Assembly: GCA_023451915.1 (NCBI GenBank)
Contig: JAEXXS010000258.1
Location: forward strand, 1-6,202
Length of the DNA: 6,202 bases
Source of the DNA: Pseudomonadota bacterium
GTDB taxonomy: Bacteria > Pseudomonadota > Alphaproteobacteria > Rhizobiales > Rhizobiaceae
Direction of reading: 5' to 3'
The position numbers were made by a program, and so were the translations under genes. Positions 1-6,202 of the stretch are shown here, piece by piece. The notes below the pieces were generated by a model that was not told where the DNA came from, ran no database searches, and saw nothing but the letters and a program-made list of their open reading frames with translations. Each line of letters starts with the position of its first letter. Positions within the stretch are counted from its first letter, which is position 1.

Positions 1-218
1 GTCGCATCATACATGAGAAAACCGACCAGCTCACCGCCTGCAAAAACAGCGCGTGGCCGGGCATCCTCATCCTCGTCTGCCTCTTCCAGCGAGCTTGCAT
101 TATCCGCGACGAGATTTTCCTGTCCCGGCGCAAGCTCCAGCCTGGCAATGCGTGACCGCAGCTCGTCGGTCACGGGAACAAGCCGGACATCGCCAGAGCT
201 TGGGACAGGATCGGTCAA
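1..218 (-). CDS. GNAT family N-acetyltransferase, polyamine-acetyltransferase-like (partial, 3' end outside window)
   Basis: This gene runs off the left edge and shows 72 codons of its N-terminal part. The protein begins MTDPVPSSGDVRLVPV. It has the first-strand pattern of GNAT enzymes related to spermine/spermidine acetyltransferases: VRLVPVTDEL near residues 11-20, the helix segment LAPGQENLVADNASSLEEA near residues 30-48, and the strand-turn-strand AVFAGGELVGFLMYD near residues 57-71. In the known family, the enzyme transfers acetyl from acetyl-CoA to a primary amine. The CoA-binding Q/RxxGxG/A motif should lie beyond the edge and cannot be checked. The start is a TTG at 218-216 that overlaps the TGA of the upstream synthetase (TTGA). 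No ATG is available in this frame near the junction. A strong GGAGG lies 7 bases upstream of the TTG, and together with the overlap this implies translational coupling. The substrate is unknown; an amine or the product of the neighbouring synthetase is plausible. The GNAT call is fairly firm, the polyamine assignment weak. Confidence 0.8.
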   Translation of the reverse strand, partial: MTDPVPSSGDVRLVPVTDELRSRIARLELAPGQENLVADNASSLEEADEDEDARPRAVFAGGELVGFLMYDA

Positions 219-3200
219 CTGGCCGCCTCCATTGGACGAAGAGCAGCAGAGCCCGCCTGTTTGACATTGGCCAGCACCGTGCCGTCCTTCGTCACCGGTA
301 CGACGAACCGGTTGAGCTTGGCCGGATTGCCACGCCAGACGGAATAAGGCTCAAGCACCTCGCCCTTCATGACGAAGGAATCGACATCAACGATAGAGCC
401 GTCGCCCATCACCACACCGTAATGCACGAATGCCGATGGTCCGAGCGTGCAGCCATTGCCGATGCGGATGAAGTCCGACTTGAAAGCGCCCTCCTCCAGC
501 GAATGCGGCTGGATCACGCAACCTTCATTCAAAGTTGCATCGTCGCCGATTTCGACCAGCGAACGCTCGGTCAGATTGGCGCCGCCGTCATAGACGCGGC
601 GACCGACCTTCACACCAAGGCAGCGCAGGATCATCGGACGGAAGGGCGTTCCGGCGAAAAGCTGCGTGATCGGCGAATCCGACAGCTTCCAATGGCGCTC
701 ATGCCGCCAGAAGGCTTCATCATAAATCGTCGTCATGCGCGGCTTCAGCCTGCCGAAGCCCAGCGAAAGGCGTTCGATGAAGATATAGAACGGTATCGCA
801 ATGCCCGCCGTCAGCACCACGGCCACAAACAGCGCGTTGTACTTCCAGTCGTCGTAATAGTTCAGCGCGCGGTCCCAGATCGCCAGCGTTGCAAACAGCA
901 TCAGCCATTGTTCCGCCAGGAACATCAATCCCGTGCGGAAATTGTGGAAGTTCTTGCGGCGCAAACGGCGCAGGCGATCGCCTTCCTCGATATTGGCGAT
1001 CAGTTCCTTGTCGCGATTGACCATGCGCGGGATTTCAAAGCAGGGCGAACCCAGAAGCCCGACATTCTCACGCACTGGCCCTTCGATAGGCACCATAACC
1101 TTGGTGCCCAGCAGGCAGTTATCGCCGGTCCGCCCATCGGACGGATAGAAGATATTGTTGCCAAAATAGTTCCGCTCACCGACCTTCGTATGCTCCAGCC
1201 GGAACGTCGCCGCCGATTTGTGGGTGTTGATCATGAACAGACCATCCGAGACCATGGTCTGGCTGCCGATTTCGCATAGAAGCGGGTTTTCATGCTGCTG
1301 GTTGGTGCCGAAATTGGACCCCGTCTGAACAACCTTGTTCAGGTTCCAGCCAATGGCACGCATATAATGCACCACCGCCGAGCTATCGCCGAAAAGCAGA
1401 TTGAGAAGGCGTGAATTGCTGGCGAGCTCCACCATCGACTGGAGCCAATAGTGAAAACCATAAAGCGTATAGGTGCGGTTCGGTTTCAGGAACAGGCTGG
1501 CCAGACGCGGCACCGCAACCGCAGCGATGAATGAGGCCGCCAGCATGCCAAACAGTGTGACAGTCGTGCCGATGGCCACGATGCCGATGGTTTCCTGATA
1601 GTCGTCGCTGACATTCTGCCAGTAGCTGTGGAACAGGAGCGGAAAGGGCGTGACCAGCATGAACAGTCCCACCAGCTGCACGATCTCGAAGGCGATGCGG
1701 CGGGTTTTGGACAGGGTGATGCTGCGCACCTTGCAATAATCCGCCGTGGTCGGTGCGGCGGGCGAACCATGCCAATGTTCGCCATCGGGGATGCTTTGAC
1801 CGCGTTGCAACGAGGACGCATGGCCAAGCTGCGCGCCATTGCCGATACTGGTATCGATATCAATGGTCGAACCAACGCCCACAAAAGCGCCATCGCCAAT
1901 GGTGATACTGCCCGTGTGGATATAGCCGCTTTCCGCCTTGAAACCGAGAATATTGGATTCGCGGCGCAGAATGGAATTCTCGCCGATGGAAATCAGGTCG
2001 GTGCAAACCGGAATTGCCCGGCATTCAATGGCGGTGTTGCGGCCAAGCTTGGCGCCGAGCAGCCGCAGATAAAGGCTATAGAGCGGGTTGCCACGGAACA
2101 GGACCACGGGCGCGGTGCGGATCAGCGTCTTCACCACCCAGAAGCGGTAATAACGCAGGCCCCAGATCGGGAAGCTTTCCGTCTTCCAGCGGCCAATCAG
2201 CACCCATTTTGCAGCAATGGCAAAACCCGTCATCGCGAAGAAGCTGGCCGCCGCCAGCACGACGCATCGGAAATAAAGCAGAAGCGGGTTATCAAGGGCA
2301 TCGTAAACCCAATCGAGACCGCCATCGAAGAAAACCAGCGCGATGTAGGCATAGACCCCGTAGAAAGCGAGCTGCGCCAGCCCGCAGGTCCAGTAAGCGA
2401 AATTGGAGGCCTTGTGGGTGAGCTGACGCTCGACGGTCGCCGCCGTTTTCTGCTGCGGCGCATGCAGATGCGCCGCCAGACTTGCGATGGTCGGATGCAG
2501 GTAAATATCCCGCATCGACGCTGTTTCCCAGCCTTGCGCTGTGCGCACACGGGCGCAAAAGCGCGCCATGAGCAGGGAATTCGCGCCCAGATCGTCAAAG
2601 AAATGATCTTCGACCGAAACCTCGTCCAGATTGAGCACTGCCGCCAGCGCATCCGCCATGAAGCGTTGATCGTCATTGCTCGGCGGCACGATTTCACGTT
2701 CCGCCGAAAGACGCACATTGGTCGGCTTCGGCAGGCGCTTCAGATCGGCCTTGTTGGAGACCGTCATCGGAATGGCGTCCAGCTCTTCCAGATAAGCGGG
2801 CACCATATAGGACGGCAGGCGGCGCTTCAGCTCGCGCGCAATATCGGCACGTTGCAGCGGCGGCATGCCGGACTTCGGCGCATAATAAGCCACCAGTTCC
2901 ACGCGACCCGGCTCGATTTCCCAGGTCGTGACGGCAGCCTGTGCAACGCCCGGCTGATCAAGCAGAACGGCTTCAATCTCGCCAAGCTCGATGCGGTAGC
3001 CGCGAATTTTCACCTGCGTATCGATACGCCCATGATACTCGATCTCGCCCGCAGCATTGATGCGCCCCAGATCGCCGGTGCGATAGATACGGGCGGACGG
3101 GTTGTTGGGCAGGCCGATGAAATCGGGAATGAACTTCTGGTCGGTCAAATCCTGCCGGTTGAGATAACCCACCGCAAGGCCGATACCGGCAATACCGATT

Positions 3201-4393
3201 TCACCCAGTTCATCGGGGTTAGTCAGCTTTGGCTCGGTCGGCTCGATAATGACAATCGAATAGGTCGGCAGCGGCGCACCGATCGTCACCGGCTTGTCGG
3301 GTGTCAGAACGCCCATGGTGGCCGTGACGGTCGCTTCCGTTGGCCCATAGGTGTTGAGAAGCAGGCGGCACGGCTTCGTCCAGCGCGTTACCAGATTGAG
3401 CGGGCAGGCTTCGCCGCCCACCATCAGCAAGCGCAGCTTCGGCACATCGGTTTCGATAGAGGAGAGCAGCGTCGGGCTGCACGCCATGCAGTTGATGTCA
3501 TGCGCCCGCAGGAAATCCGCAAGTTCCTCGCCCACAAGCGTCATCGGTCCCGGCGCAGGCACCACGGTAGCACCTGCCGTAAACGGCACCCAATATTCTT
3601 CGGCAGAGAAGTCGAAGGCGATGGTCATGCCGTGATAAACACGGTCTCCCGGCTTATAGCCGTAGGACATCGCCGCGACACGCAGGAAGTTGCAGAAGCT
3701 CTGATGCAGGATCGCGACGCCCTTCGGCCGGCCGGTCGTTCCTGATGTGTAGAGAATATAGCAAATCTGGTCGGGGTTTGCGGCTCTGGCATCTTTGTCC
3801 AGCGGTGCGACCGACTGTCTGGAAATTTCGGTGCTCGCCCCATCGACCAGCACATGCGGCACGGGCATCTGTTCGACGCGCGCCTTATAGGCCTCCAGCG
3901 AAATGACGAGCTTTACATTGGCGTCCTCGATGATGAGGGCCATGCGATCTTCGGGAAAAGCGGTTGCCAGCGGCACATAGGCTGCGCCTGCCTTCATGAC
4001 CGCAAGCAGCGCAATATAGGTGTCGGCGGAACGGTCCAGCAGCAGGCCAATACGGTCGCCCGGGCGAACGCCGCGTTCGATCAGCAGCCGCGCAAATTGA
4101 TTGGCGCGGCTGTCGAGTTCCCGATAGGTCCAGTTGCGCCCGTCGGAAACGACGGCGACCGAATCTGAAAACTTGTCGGCCAGCTGCTCAAAAAACAGGT
4201 CCAGCCGCTCGCCCGGCTTTCCGGGCTCGGCAAAATCGGCGCCAGCCAGAATCTGCTTGTGAGCGGAGAGAGCATGCACCCCGCCCTGTGGCCTTTTTAC
4301 CTGCACATCATCGATGGGCAGACCATTATCGCTTGTCGTCGCTGCGGCTTCGCCGTGTCCAGCGCCACGATTTTCATAGTTCATATTCAACAC
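215..4393 (-). CDS. Pls/PosA-type membrane non-ribosomal peptide synthetase (poly-cationic amino acid synthetase-like)
   Basis: The 1392-residue protein is predicted to activate one amino acid as an adenylate, load it on its own carrier domain and polymerise or conjugate it at the inner membrane. Order of parts: a low-complexity leader (1-55); an adenylation domain (about 60-560) with A3 YTSGTTGRPKG at 215-225, A5 NTYGPTE at 347-353, A7 YRTGDL at 437-442, A8 from GRIDTQVKIRGYR at 455 and the A10 lysine K548; a carrier domain with LGANS and phosphopantetheine Ser606; then membrane segments near 665-689, 702-734, 902-922, 936-968, 1153-1173 and 1187-1208. These flank three soluble domains with hexapeptide-repeat character (about 785-880, 1020-1122, 1260-1360). 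This is the layout of Streptomyces epsilon-poly-L-lysine synthetase (about 1300 residues). No HHxxxDG condensation motif or thioesterase is seen, so a siderophore (EntF-like) label would mislead. The GTG start at 4393 follows a stop codon directly; ATG at 4384, with a weak GAG 8 bases upstream, is equally possible. Family call is strong; substrate and product are inferred. Confidence 0.93.
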   Translation of the reverse strand: MLNMNYENRGAGHGEAAATTSDNGLPIDDVQVKRPQGGVHALSAHKQILAGADFAEPGKPGERLDLFFEQLADKFSDSVAVVSDGRNWTYRELDSRANQFARLLIERGVRPGDRIGLLLDRSADTYIALLAVMKAGAAYVPLATAFPEDRMALIIEDANVKLVISLEAYKARVEQMPVPHVLVDGASTEISRQSVAPLDKDARAANPDQICYILYTSGTTGRPKGVAILHQSFCNFLRVAAMSYGYKPGDRVYHGMTIAFDFSAEEYWVPFTAGATVVPAPGPMTLVGEELADFLRAHDINCMACSPTLLSSIETDVPKLRLLMVGGEACPLNLVTRWTKPCRLLLNTYGPTEATVTATMGVLTPDKPVTIGAPLPTYSIVIIEPTEPKLTNPDELGEIGIAGIGLAVGYLNRQDLTDQKFIPDFIGLPNNPSARIYRTGDLGRINAAGEIEYHGRIDTQVKIRGYRIELGEIEAVLLDQPGVAQAAVTTWEIEPGRVELVAYYAPKSGMPPLQRADIARELKRRLPSYMVPAYLEELDAIPMTVSNKADLKRLPKPTNVRLSAEREIVPPSNDDQRFMADALAAVLNLDEVSVEDHFFDDLGANSLLMARFCARVRTAQGWETASMRDIYLHPTIASLAAHLHAPQQKTAATVERQLTHKASNFAYWTCGLAQLAFYGVYAYIALVFFDGGLDWVYDALDNPLLLYFRCVVLAAASFFAMTGFAIAAKWVLIGRWKTESFPIWGLRYYRFWVVKTLIRTAPVVLFRGNPLYSLYLRLLGAKLGRNTAIECRAIPVCTDLISIGENSILRRESNILGFKAESGYIHTGSITIGDGAFVGVGSTIDIDTSIGNGAQLGHASSLQRGQSIPDGEHWHGSPAAPTTADYCKVRSITLSKTRRIAFEIVQLVGLFMLVTPFPLLFHSYWQNVSDDYQETIGIVAIGTTVTLFGMLAASFIAAVAVPRLASLFLKPNRTYTLYGFHYWLQSMVELASNSRLLNLLFGDSSAVVHYMRAIGWNLNKVVQTGSNFGTNQQHENPLLCEIGSQTMVSDGLFMINTHKSAATFRLEHTKVGERNYFGNNIFYPSDGRTGDNCLLGTKVMVPIEGPVRENVGLLGSPCFEIPRMVNRDKELIANIEEGDRLRRLRRKNFHNFRTGLMFLAEQWLMLFATLAIWDRALNYYDDWKYNALFVAVVLTAGIAIPFYIFIERLSLGFGRLKPRMTTIYDEAFWRHERHWKLSDSPITQLFAGTPFRPMILRCLGVKVGRRVYDGGANLTERSLVEIGDDATLNEGCVIQPHSLEEGAFKSDFIRIGNGCTLGPSAFVHYGVVMGDGSIVDVDSFVMKGEVLEPYSVWRGNPAKLNRFVVPVTKDGTVLANVKQAGSAALRPMEAAS
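226..230 (-). promoter_or_regulatory. Shine-Dalgarno site setting a TTG start
   Basis: On the minus strand GGAGG sits 7 bases before the TTG at 218-216, inside the last codons of the synthetase gene. It is the best ribosome-binding site in the left half of the window. It is the main reason for choosing the non-ATG start of the acetyltransferase. Confidence 0.7.
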
Positions 4394-4424
4394 TCACTGA
4401 CCAAAGGTCGAGCATCAACAGGCA

Positions 4425-4453
4425 ATTATACGCGTTAGGCGGCACGCTTGCCT
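4425..4453 (-). promoter_or_regulatory. Candidate sigma-70-type promoter for the synthetase gene
   Basis: The minus strand has a perfect -10 hexamer TATAAT at 4430-4425. At a 17-base spacing the -35 position (4453-4448) reads AGGCAA, a poor match to TTGACA. Transcription would begin near 4418, giving a leader of about 25-35 bases before the GTG at 4393 or the ATG at 4384. A perfect -10 with a weak -35 is typical of activator-dependent promoters. Seen by eye only. Confidence 0.5.
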
Positions 4454-4482
4454 GCAATGAGGCATTATCTGTCGTCGAACCG

Positions 4483-4497
4483 TTCACTGCGGGTGAA
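4483..4497. promoter_or_regulatory. Candidate LysR-type operator, TTCAC-N5-GTGAA
   Basis: This is a perfect 5-5-5 inverted repeat whose inner T (4484) and A (4496) satisfy the T-N11-A rule of LysR-type boxes. Its centre at 4490 is about 72 bases upstream of the start point predicted for the synthetase promoter, close to the usual recognition-site position near -65. A divergent LysR gene begins 183 bases away. Short dyads occur by chance, so the assignment depends on position and context. Confidence 0.4.
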
Positions 4498-4594
4498 GAA
4501 GACCGCTATTGGCGCAGGCCACTACTCAAACTGGTGCAAATAAGAAAGTGAATTATTTTTATTTTAGCTGTTCATCCATCAGTGTTGCAAAACT

Positions 4595-4607
4595 AGCATA
4601 CAATGCT
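4595..4607. promoter_or_regulatory. Short palindrome AGCAT-ACA-ATGCT upstream of the LysR gene
   Basis: A perfect 5-3-5 inverted repeat lies 73 bases before the LysR start codon. It overlaps TACAAT at 4599-4604, which resembles a -10 hexamer but has no matching -35 at 16-18 bases. It could be an autoregulatory operator. It does not fit T-N11-A, so its binding protein is open. The palindromic hexamer TTGCAA occurs nearby twice, at 4585-4590 and 4645-4650. Confidence 0.25.
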
Positions 4608-4679
4608 GACCAGATCATCCGATTTTAGTTCCTATCCACCGCTCTTGCAATCTTTTGCTGGCCACGGTTAACTGCCGAA

Positions 4680-5588
4680 ATGGCGTTTACATTAAGGCAG
4701 TTACAGTATTTCGTTGCCGTTGCGGAGCAGGGGTCGGTGACCCGCGCGGCGCAAAAGCTGTCAATCTCGCAGTCTTCTGTCACGGAAGCGATCAAGGAGC
4801 TGGAAACCGACCTTAATGTCGAGCTTTTCGAGCGCCATCCCCGTGGCCTGACAGTGACGCATAACGGCCACCAGTTCCTGCGCCATGCCACCAAGATTCT
4901 GACCGGCGTTTCCGACGCCCGCCGTTCCTTCGCCGACCAGCGCATTCAGGAAAAGGGCAAGCTTAATCTGGGCGTGACATCGCTGGTCGCTGGCTACGTC
5001 CTGTCCGACCTGCTCGCCCGCTATCGACGCGCCTTTCCCGGCGTCGAAATCAGCGCCATCGAAGACAATGGTTCCTATCTGGAACATCTGCTGGTCGGCG
5101 GTGAGCTGGACGTGGCGGTGATGGTGATTTCCAACCTGCGCGACCGCATGGCGCTGCATGCGGAAATTCTCGAAACCTCGCCCTATCGGCTGTGGCTGCC
5201 GCTTGGCCATGAACTCGTTTCCATCGACTGCATATCAGTGAGCGATATCGCCAAAGAACCGCTGATCATGCTGACTGTGGATGAAATCGAGGAAAACACC
5301 GGCAAGCTTCTGGCCGCGCTCGGCGCGCGCCCGCATGTGGCCTTCCGCACCCGTTCGGTGGAAGCCGTGCGCAGCCTCGTCGCCACGGGGGCGGGCATAG
5401 CCCTCCTCCCCGATCTCGTCTATCGCCCCTGGTCGCTGGAAGGCGACCGGATCGAAAGCCGCGATGTATCGGGCTCGCTGCCCGTCGTGCAGATCGGCAT
5501 GGCCTGGCGCAAGGGATCGAGCCTGCCCCAATCCGCACGAGACTTTATCGGGATTGCAGAAGCCGCTCGTTCTGGCCGACTGCGTTAA
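4680..5588 (+). CDS. LysR-type transcriptional regulator
   Basis: The 302-residue length is normal for the family. The N-terminus has the classic winged helix-turn-helix: FTLRQLQYFVAVAEQGSVTR at 3-22, AAQKLSISQSSVTEAIKELE at 23-42 with the recognition helix near 31-41, and LNVELFERHPRGLTVTHNG at 45-63. A linker helix (about 65-90) is followed by a periplasmic-binding-protein-like effector domain (about 93-295), including GAGIALLPDLVY at 237-248. It should act as a cytoplasmic tetramer that binds DNA and responds to a small molecule. The ATG at 4680 gives the canonical distance to the HTH, although no good Shine-Dalgarno precedes it. It is divergent from the synthetase gene and co-directional with the YdcS-like gene 122 bases downstream. 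By family habit its targets are the divergent gene and possibly the downstream transporter. The effector is unknown; an amine or basic amino acid is a guess from context. Confidence 0.95.
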   Translation: MAFTLRQLQYFVAVAEQGSVTRAAQKLSISQSSVTEAIKELETDLNVELFERHPRGLTVTHNGHQFLRHATKILTGVSDARRSFADQRIQEKGKLNLGVTSLVAGYVLSDLLARYRRAFPGVEISAIEDNGSYLEHLLVGGELDVAVMVISNLRDRMALHAEILETSPYRLWLPLGHELVSIDCISVSDIAKEPLIMLTVDEIEENTGKLLAALGARPHVAFRTRSVEAVRSLVATGAGIALLPDLVYRPWSLEGDRIESRDVSGSLPVVQIGMAWRKGSSLPQSARDFIGIAEAARSGRLR

Positions 5589-5595
5589 ACTCCAA

Positions 5596-5626
5596 TATCG
5601 GAAAAACCGATACCAGCTTTCCGATA
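5596..5626. repeat. Nested inverted repeat between the LysR and YdcS-like genes
   Basis: TATCGG (5596-5601), CCGATA (5607-5612) and CCGATA (5621-5626) give two alternative pairings. One is a perfect 6-5-6 palindrome TATCGG-AAAAA-CCGATA. The other is a longer 9-13-9 pairing of TATCGGAAA (5596-5604) with TTTCCGATA (5618-5626). The first also meets T-N11-A (T5598 to A5610). It starts 8 bases after the LysR stop and ends 84 bases before the YdcS-like start. No T-run follows the stem, so an intrinsic terminator is unlikely. An operator for the downstream transporter gene is more probable. Half-sites differ from those at 4483-4497, so one protein need not bind both. Confidence 0.55.
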
Positions 5627-5710
5627 AATGAATTTGCGAAAGGCAGGGTTTCAGCACACCATCCGCTCCGGGAACAAAATCACTGAATATGAATAAAACG
5701 GGAGTGGTCG

Positions 5711-6202
5711 ATGAGAAAATTTCTGCAATCCTGTACCGCTTTGATGGCCGTCGCGAGCTTTGCCACGCAGGCCATTGCCGCCGAACCGCTGAAAGCAATT
5801 GGCGAAGGTGAAGGCGCGCTGAGCATCGTGGCCTGGGCGGGCTATATCGAACGCGGCGAAACCGACAAGAATTACGACTGGGTCACGGATTTCGAAAAGG
5901 AAACCGGCTGCAAGGTCAGCGTGAAAACCGCCGCCACCTCCGACGAAATGGTGGCGCTGATGAATGAAGGCGGCTTCGATCTCGTCACAGCGTCCGGCGA
6001 CGCCTCGCTGCGTCTCGTGGCTGGCAAGCGCGTACAGCCTATCAACACCGACCTCATCCCCAGCTGGAAAACCATAGACGAGCGGCTGCAAAATGCGCCG
6101 TGGTTCACCGTCAAGGACGTGCATTACGGTGTGCCCTATCTCTGGGGCCCGAATGTGCTGATGTACAACACCGATGTCTTCAAGGGCGAAGCGCCGAAGA
6201 GC
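5711..6202 (+). CDS. ydcS: YdcS-like periplasmic substrate-binding protein of a polyamine-type ABC transporter (partial, 3' end outside window)
   Basis: The first 164 codons are present and stay open to the right edge. The protein has a signal peptide: MRKF, a hydrophobic core around residues 9-18, and AIA at 21-23 as the likely signal peptidase I site. The mature part carries IVAWAGYIERGETDKNYDWV (39-58), FEKETGC (61-67), KTAATSDEMVALM (72-84), DLVTASGDASLRL (90-102), GKRVQPINTDLIPSWKT (105-121) and WGPNVLMYNT (145-154). These match my memory of E. coli YdcS very closely, the binding protein of the YdcSTUV putrescine/spermidine-type importer and a relative of PotD and PotF. It should bind its ligand in the periplasm and deliver it to membrane partners, expected just beyond the edge. 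The ATG at 5711 has a good GGGAGTGG Shine-Dalgarno 6-12 bases upstream. The family is clear; the ligand, probably a polyamine, is inferred. The symbol rests on similarity only. Confidence 0.88.
   Translation, partial: MRKFLQSCTALMAVASFATQAIAAEPLKAIGEGEGALSIVAWAGYIERGETDKNYDWVTDFEKETGCKVSVKTAATSDEMVALMNEGGFDLVTASGDASLRLVAGKRVQPINTDLIPSWKTIDERLQNAPWFTVKDVHYGVPYLWGPNVLMYNTDVFKGEAPKS

Follow-up and report, generated by a model that had tools for sequence, protein, structure and literature searches.

What polymer does a poly-lysine/poly-ornithine-type synthetase make in a rhizobial bacterium, and how does the cell live with a positively charged product? The question is raised by contig JAEXXS010000258.1 (assembly GCA_023451915.1, family Rhizobiaceae), whose positions 1 to 6,202 form the window analysed here, and which carries a pls-like gene and the start of a GNAT-family N-acetyltransferase gene. 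Family, layout and one Gram-negative member were described before; what looks new is a rhizobial subfamily usually accompanied by its own acetyltransferase gene, and the most informative part of the locus is the GNAT gene that overlaps pls at the edge of the window. On balance, the locus probably directs iterative, membrane-bound synthesis of a short isopeptide polycation whose amines are acetylated by the GNAT enzyme. For this reading, the biochemical steps, the monomer and the GNAT role are drawn from the domains, predicted fold, pocket, gene order, overlap, co-occurrence and purifying selection described below.

The window gene is a member of the known Pls/PosA family of poly-lysine and poly-ornithine synthetases, with the following parts:

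215..4393, minus strand: pls-like gene, a synthetase of 1392 amino acids with adenylation (A), carrier (PCP) and Pls/PosA terminal domains (open reading frame (ORF) scan, profile matches, motifs)
2723..4192, minus strand: adenylation domain, residues ~68-557 (Pfam and pocket alignment)
2465..2656, minus strand: carrier domain, residues 580-643, with LGANS at 602-606 (Pfam and motif)
320..2389, minus strand: Pls/PosA terminal domain (TIGR02353), residues 669-1358 (profile match)
2198..2404, minus strand: membrane helix pair 1, residues ~664-697 and 703-732 (prediction)
1724..2197, minus strand: β-helix domain C1, limits approximate (prediction)
1496..1708, minus strand: membrane helix pair 2 (prediction)
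1004..1495, minus strand: β-helix domain C2, limits approximate (prediction)
764..985, minus strand: membrane helix pair 3 (prediction)
284..763, minus strand: β-helix domain C3, limits approximate, carrying the Pfam hexapeptide match (Pfam and prediction)

The frame opens with GTG, has an ATG three codons further in and contains no internal stops. Compared with the relative L001, the gene has a nonsynonymous divergence (dN) of 0.016 and a synonymous divergence (dS) of 0.359 and is thus under purifying selection, which rules out a chance ORF or decay; against L003, dN is 0.103 and dS 2.061 (saturated). The closest fetched relative of the protein is from Ochrobactrum sp. Q0168 (97% identity in the best segment), and further Ochrobactrum-type records, including Brucella haematophila, share 95-96% identity; this makes the source an Ochrobactrum-type alphaproteobacterium, in line with the alphaproteobacterial context suggested by a first-pass annotation. 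Public records label close relatives ‘Pls/PosA family’.

Pfam placed AMP-binding at residues 68-411, AMP-binding_C at 472-548 and PP-binding at 580-643, giving a single A domain with its motifs present and a single PCP with the attachment serine. The TIGR02353 profile, named in the first-pass annotation as a check on its proposal of a Pls-type single-module membrane synthetase, matched over its full length at 849.9 bits, twice the cut-off of 423.1, and the proposal holds in coordinates, strand and layout. A hexapeptide match at residues 1309-1335 was given by PF00132 (29.4 bits, cut-off 27) and, below its cut-off of 27, by PF14602 (24.9 bits). No condensation (C) or thioesterase (TE) domain was among the five Pfam families matched at E 0.001, and a motif scan of the protein found neither HHxxxD nor GxSxG. 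Such genes may carry the label of an EntF-like siderophore synthetase, an identity already discounted in the first-pass annotation. The A-PCP region is common to both and the EntF model scores 275 bits, but this is far below its cut-off of 2400, the C and TE domains are missing, and siderophore gene names are absent from three annotated neighbourhoods with the same pocket; we rejected EntF identity as wholly implausible.

A hydropathy scan of the C-terminal half gave six segments (670-693, 702-734, 899-923, 934-970, 1154-1172 and 1184-1211), while a seventh (127-146) inside the A domain was taken as false. An AlphaFold2 model covering residues 648-1392 (mean pLDDT 80.6, pTM 0.83) shows three helix pairs with a β-helix unit after each, and the protein is predicted to hold six transmembrane (TM) helices in three pairs and three tandem β-helix domains, the arrangement expected in the first-pass annotation. 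PosA of Acinetobacter baumannii, a Gram-negative δ-poly-L-ornithine synthetase characterised in 2023 (PMC10522769), has the same order of A, PCP and terminal domains, with six TM helices and three β-helices. Our literature search returned, for Gram-negatives, a single characterised full-length enzyme, PosA, and a single A domain with assay data, from Bdellovibrionales (PMC10522769), and the earlier remark that Gram-negative relatives are largely uncharacterised is therefore half right. The C-terminal domains are predicted to share the fold of small-molecule acyltransferases, which would also suit an enzyme that makes no homopolymer and passes a single activated amino acid, or a few, to an acceptor in the envelope (a lipid or sugar amine), but PosA has this same layout and its polymer was demonstrated in vitro (PMC10522769). 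We consider transfer to an acceptor improbable.

By alignment, the A-domain pocket is DFEAMGTVTK (D261, F262, E265, A304, M324, G326, T348, V356, T357 and K548), in the GrsA-based position scheme, with the register cross-checked against PosA residue numbers. A constant offset of 44 separates these residues from the PosA residues named in PMC10522769, and the register is therefore safe. The PosA amine contacts D217, E221, T304 and S313 are retained or conservatively replaced, with D, E, T, V and T/S in register between the two pockets, whereas PosA Met218, His260 and Asn280 are Phe, Ala and Met in the window protein. Set against the ornithine pocket DMEHNGTVSK, the residues that make contact (D, E, T and T/S) persist and Met has become Phe. 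The chain-length position (PosA Met218; Phe262 here) is Phe in synthetases of poly-diaminopropionate (PDAP) and poly-diaminobutyrate (PDAB), Met in ornithine enzymes and Ala in lysine enzymes (PMC10522769). Phe262 thus agrees with the PDAP/PDAB type and departs from the lysine type; the feature it shares with the γ-PDAB and β-PDAP synthetases of Streptomyces and Streptoalloteichus is the Phe at this pocket position 2 (PMC10522769). The likeness to the Streptomyces albulus ε-poly-L-lysine synthetase Pls, drawn in the first-pass annotation, is therefore borne out for family and layout and fails in the pocket, where the lysine-type Ala (PMC10522769) is replaced by Phe. A pocket of this kind is not of lysine type, pointing to 2,4-diaminobutyrate (Dab), 2,3-diaminopropionate (Dap) or ornithine.

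Across 69 rows (68 loci and the window), DFEA[LM]GTVTK was found in 65; the pockets of L065 and L067 are of the DFEC kind, and no code was obtained for L066 and L068, so that the Asp/Glu pair (D261 and E265 here) is present in 67 of 69. The other fetched groups have DMEHNGTV[ST]K (PosA type), DLED[IL]G[TS]VVK, which resembles a rhizobial code left unassigned in PMC10522769, DSECYGGVTK, the code of the Bdellovibrionales A domain, whose arginine activity was modest (PMC10522769), and DFECLS[VA]VTK, in the rows nearest to the window's clade. A Rhizobium sp. CCGE532 plasmid (L088) carries a second, distant Pls type (29% identity, pocket DLEDIGTVVK near the unassigned rhizobial code of PMC10522769) with a 4'-phosphopantetheinyl transferase (PPTase) gene adjoining. 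The Pls homologue on a Pseudonocardia alni plasmid (L084) has the unusual pocket DLERLSTVTV and altered core motifs, and its A domain is perhaps decaying or repurposed.

The partner gene, missing from the first-pass annotation, lies immediately after pls:

3..218, minus strand: start of the GNAT N-acetyltransferase gene, 72 codons, cut by the window edge (ORF, comparison with L001)

Its TTG start (218-216) overlaps the pls TGA stop (217-215) by 4 nt (TTGA, 218-215). The 72-residue piece alone matched no family at E 0.001, and its identity was read from the copy in L001, to whose same 72 codons it is 87.5% identical. In L001, a complete GNAT of 155 residues follows pls and precedes a PPTase gene; it matches PF00583 at 58.7 bits (cut-off 20.7) and falls below the cut-off of all nine NCBI families matched (PaiA NF053587, 20.1 versus 250 bits). 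Residues Q91, G92, G94 and G96, of the acetyl-CoA-binding glycine motif, are invariant in 21 of 21 sequences. The best solved relatives are spermine/spermidine N-acetyltransferases (PDB 9dsb, E 2.8e-15; 2fl4, E 5e-15), yet at just ~60 bits.

Adjacency was scored in the 65 of 68 loci with at least 2 kb after pls, requiring a GNAT start no more than 400 nt, or a PPTase start no more than 1500 nt, from the pls stop. Both genes are adjacent in 48 loci, the PPTase only in 13, the GNAT only in one and neither in three (L066-L068); when only loci carrying the window's pocket are counted, 49 of 61 have the GNAT alongside pls and 60 of 61 the PPTase. Of the 50 GNAT-adjacent loci, 40 have an in-frame start that shares 4 nt with the pls stop (22 TTGA, 18 GTGA), including L046, where the frame from that start has only 42 codons, and the same overlap occurs in 12 of 14 PPTase-first loci. 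Annotated records have the orders pls-GNAT-PPTase (Aureimonas), pls-PPTase (Shinella) and pls-GNAT (Phyllobacterium). The PPTase partner is not peculiar to the window's clade. In contrast to the window, where the GNAT gene overlaps the pls stop and most relatives have a PPTase next, posA forms an operon by itself (PMC10522769), and the operon partner of S. albulus Pls is the peptidase gene pldII (PMC8117764), not a GNAT gene. Four Rhizobium-type loci (L022, L024, L032 and L036) have a more distant GNAT (34-35% identity) that starts ~0.95-1.1 kb after the pls stop, past the PPTase start. In Phyllobacterium (L087), pls-GNAT directly adjoins type IV secretion genes on a plasmid of 450 kb, by which the pair may have spread.

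Co-occurrence was scored with a GNAT profile from 21 sequences (match at E 1e-15; mostly the best nine candidates per genome). The synthetase gene is present in 34 of 394 family genomes (23 with the window's pocket); wider samples gave 10 of 385 genomes for the class and 27 of 398 for the phylum (26 of these above the cut-off). GNAT matches occur in 39 of the 394 family genomes, and the 19 that exceed 200 bits all fall within the 23 same-pocket genomes; in one of these (G214) the GNAT lies on another contig, apart from pls. Within the genus the pls-GNAT pair is patchy and appears or disappears jointly: 11 of 35 genomes have pls, the same 11 have a GNAT above 200 bits (lowest 214.8), and none of the 24 genomes lacking pls does. 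Fisher tests, which ignore kinship, gave p = 8e-29 for the family and 2e-9 for the genus, the two samples overlapping in genomes. On sequence grounds, the GNAT and the pocket mark one clade, near enzymes linked to ectB, in a FastTree phylogeny of Pls (91 of 134 rows after removal of near-identical ones, with several long-branch warnings).

We propose that the A domain would adenylate a small diamino acid and load it onto the PCP, which the neighbouring PPTase (seen in relatives; beyond the window edge here) would convert to the holo form. At the inner membrane, the C-terminal unit would link monomers by side-chain amines to give a short isopeptide homopolymer of cationic character; this unit is putatively a pseudo-trimer within one chain, with hexapeptide-type acyltransferase domains mounted on six membrane helices. 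Translational coupling of the GNAT is probable. In the cytoplasm this enzyme would acetylate amines that are free on the polymer or on its oligomers, with neutralisation of the polycation (self-protection) as the likeliest purpose and tailoring or capping as the alternative. Self-protection is our first choice and tailoring our second because acetyltransferases protect producers of cationic peptides (PamZ for paenilamicin and OatA for odilorhabdin; PMC9054821 and PMC8749412), and because the Pls partner in Streptomyces and Corynebacterium is a peptidase, shown in Streptomyces to degrade the polymer and postulated to protect (PMC8117764). We give self-protection an even chance, tailoring or capping a lesser one, and monomer metabolism or another role the smallest.

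If the GNAT were a tailoring enzyme with no part in self-protection, the secreted polymer would be partly or terminally N-acetylated rather than a free polycation; the close coupling by 4-nt overlap and the few changes of adjacency on the Pls tree suit a biosynthetic as well as a resistance step. However, 12 of 61 loci without an adjacent GNAT retain the same pocket, and PosA, from its single-gene operon, needs no such partner to make polyornithine of 7-12 units in vitro, so that we consider this alternative unlikely. More speculatively, a rhizobial Pls/PosA clade may have shifted to its own pocket DFEA[LM]GTVTK, acquired a dedicated polyamine-type GNAT and come to make an undescribed, acetylation-controlled isopeptide polycation, with N-acetylation replacing the degrading peptidase whose protective role is postulated for Streptomyces producers.

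Several observations on the acetyltransferase and on monomer supply weigh against synthesis of an acetylated isopeptide polycation. The substrate of the GNAT cannot be read from its sequence. The other 20 family genomes with a GNAT match (20 of 371 in that sample) reach at most 124.6 bits, and four of the 24 genus genomes lacking pls have a more distant GNAT (119-128 bits); given these distant copies, which together span 64-128 bits, the broader GNAT group has no fixed link to pls. Kinship also clusters the co-occurrence, and three changes of GNAT adjacency explain the Pls tree; this fits one gain and two losses in the window's clade, although a parsimony count cannot separate gain from loss. 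With no adjacent GNAT in those 12 loci and no copy above 200 bits in four of 23 genomes, the synthetase can evidently do without it. Finally, on a Sphingomonas parapaucimobilis plasmid (L089, 4108-9223) a distant ornithine-type Pls (DMEHNGTVTK) stands in the run pls-PPTase-GNAT, so the GNAT is not tied to the window's pocket, and the association may have arisen more than once.

On the supply side, among 31 same-pocket genomes scanned (completeness not stated; L006's genome left out), EctB exceeded its cut-off in three, Dat in five and either in five, both being below cut-off in 26, while SbnB exceeded its cut-off in none of 11 same-pocket genomes. Because these enzymes are scarce, Dab or Dap by known routes is disfavoured, and ornithine, expected in any such cell, is the likeliest monomer by supply. 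Ornithine fits the supply yet conflicts with the Phe rule, and the Dab or Dap supply demanded by the rule was not seen. Judged from sequence, ornithine would lead the candidates, with somewhat less than an even chance, followed by Dab; another monomer seems unlikely, and Dap more so. Reported supply genes of PDAB and PDAP systems include dat/ask, pddB and NjxA/NjxB (PMC8117764, PMC8225329 and PMC4668381), whereas in the window's clade ectB adjoins pls in none of the 26 same-pocket loci scored.

Among the five scorable rows nearest to the window's clade, ectB adjoins pls in L081, L090 and L117 and not in L083 or L084; L118 (flank too short), L065 and L067 fell outside this scoring. The Phe pocket of the ectB-linked neighbours probably takes Dab. 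The window enzyme could be a γ-poly-Dab synthetase like them, with Dab obtained via an unrecognised transaminase or uptake, as its Phe at pocket position 2 follows the PDAP/PDAB rule of PMC10522769 and its tree neighbours have DFECLS[VA]VTK pockets. Three additional pocket positions differ, however (C to A, S to G and V/A to T), and so few same-pocket genomes have EctB or Dat that we regard this identity as doubtful. The Skermanella plasmids L081 and L090 carry ectB-pls-hypothetical-S41 peptidase-porin clusters, probably a Dab-type Pls that brings along a gene for its precursor, with the porin as a possible outlet through the outer membrane. Their enzymes share 48-49% identity and the Phe pocket with the window protein, and their loci differ from the window in having ectB upstream and the S41 peptidase and porin downstream, with no GNAT or PPTase annotated in 14 kb.

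A full-text search of open-licence literature found no papers on a pls-GNAT cassette. The pairing suggests how cells produce a positively charged polymer and perhaps guard themselves against it, and bears on Gram-negative tolerance of a polycation made at the cell's own membrane. Polymers of the cationic isopeptide type serve as preservatives and are under study as antifungals. Clade members come from soil and nodule-associated bacteria (Mesorhizobium, Rhizobium, Phyllobacterium, Shinella, Aureimonas and Ochrobactrum), and their compact two- or three-gene cassette offers a test case for monomer choice by a Phe pocket where a Dab pathway is not seen.

Elsewhere in the window, a tRNA search found none, and two long open frames lie antisense to pls (53-1279, plus strand, 408 residues; 1628-3745, plus strand, 705 residues), which probably arise from codon use in a gene rich in GC. 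A LysR regulator gene (4680-5588, plus strand) is divergent from pls, and the LysR family occurs in just five of the 68 loci. At 5711-6202 (plus strand) begins a gene for a YdcS/PotD-type polyamine-binding protein, of which the part present scores 257.5 bits against the YdcS cut-off of 725.
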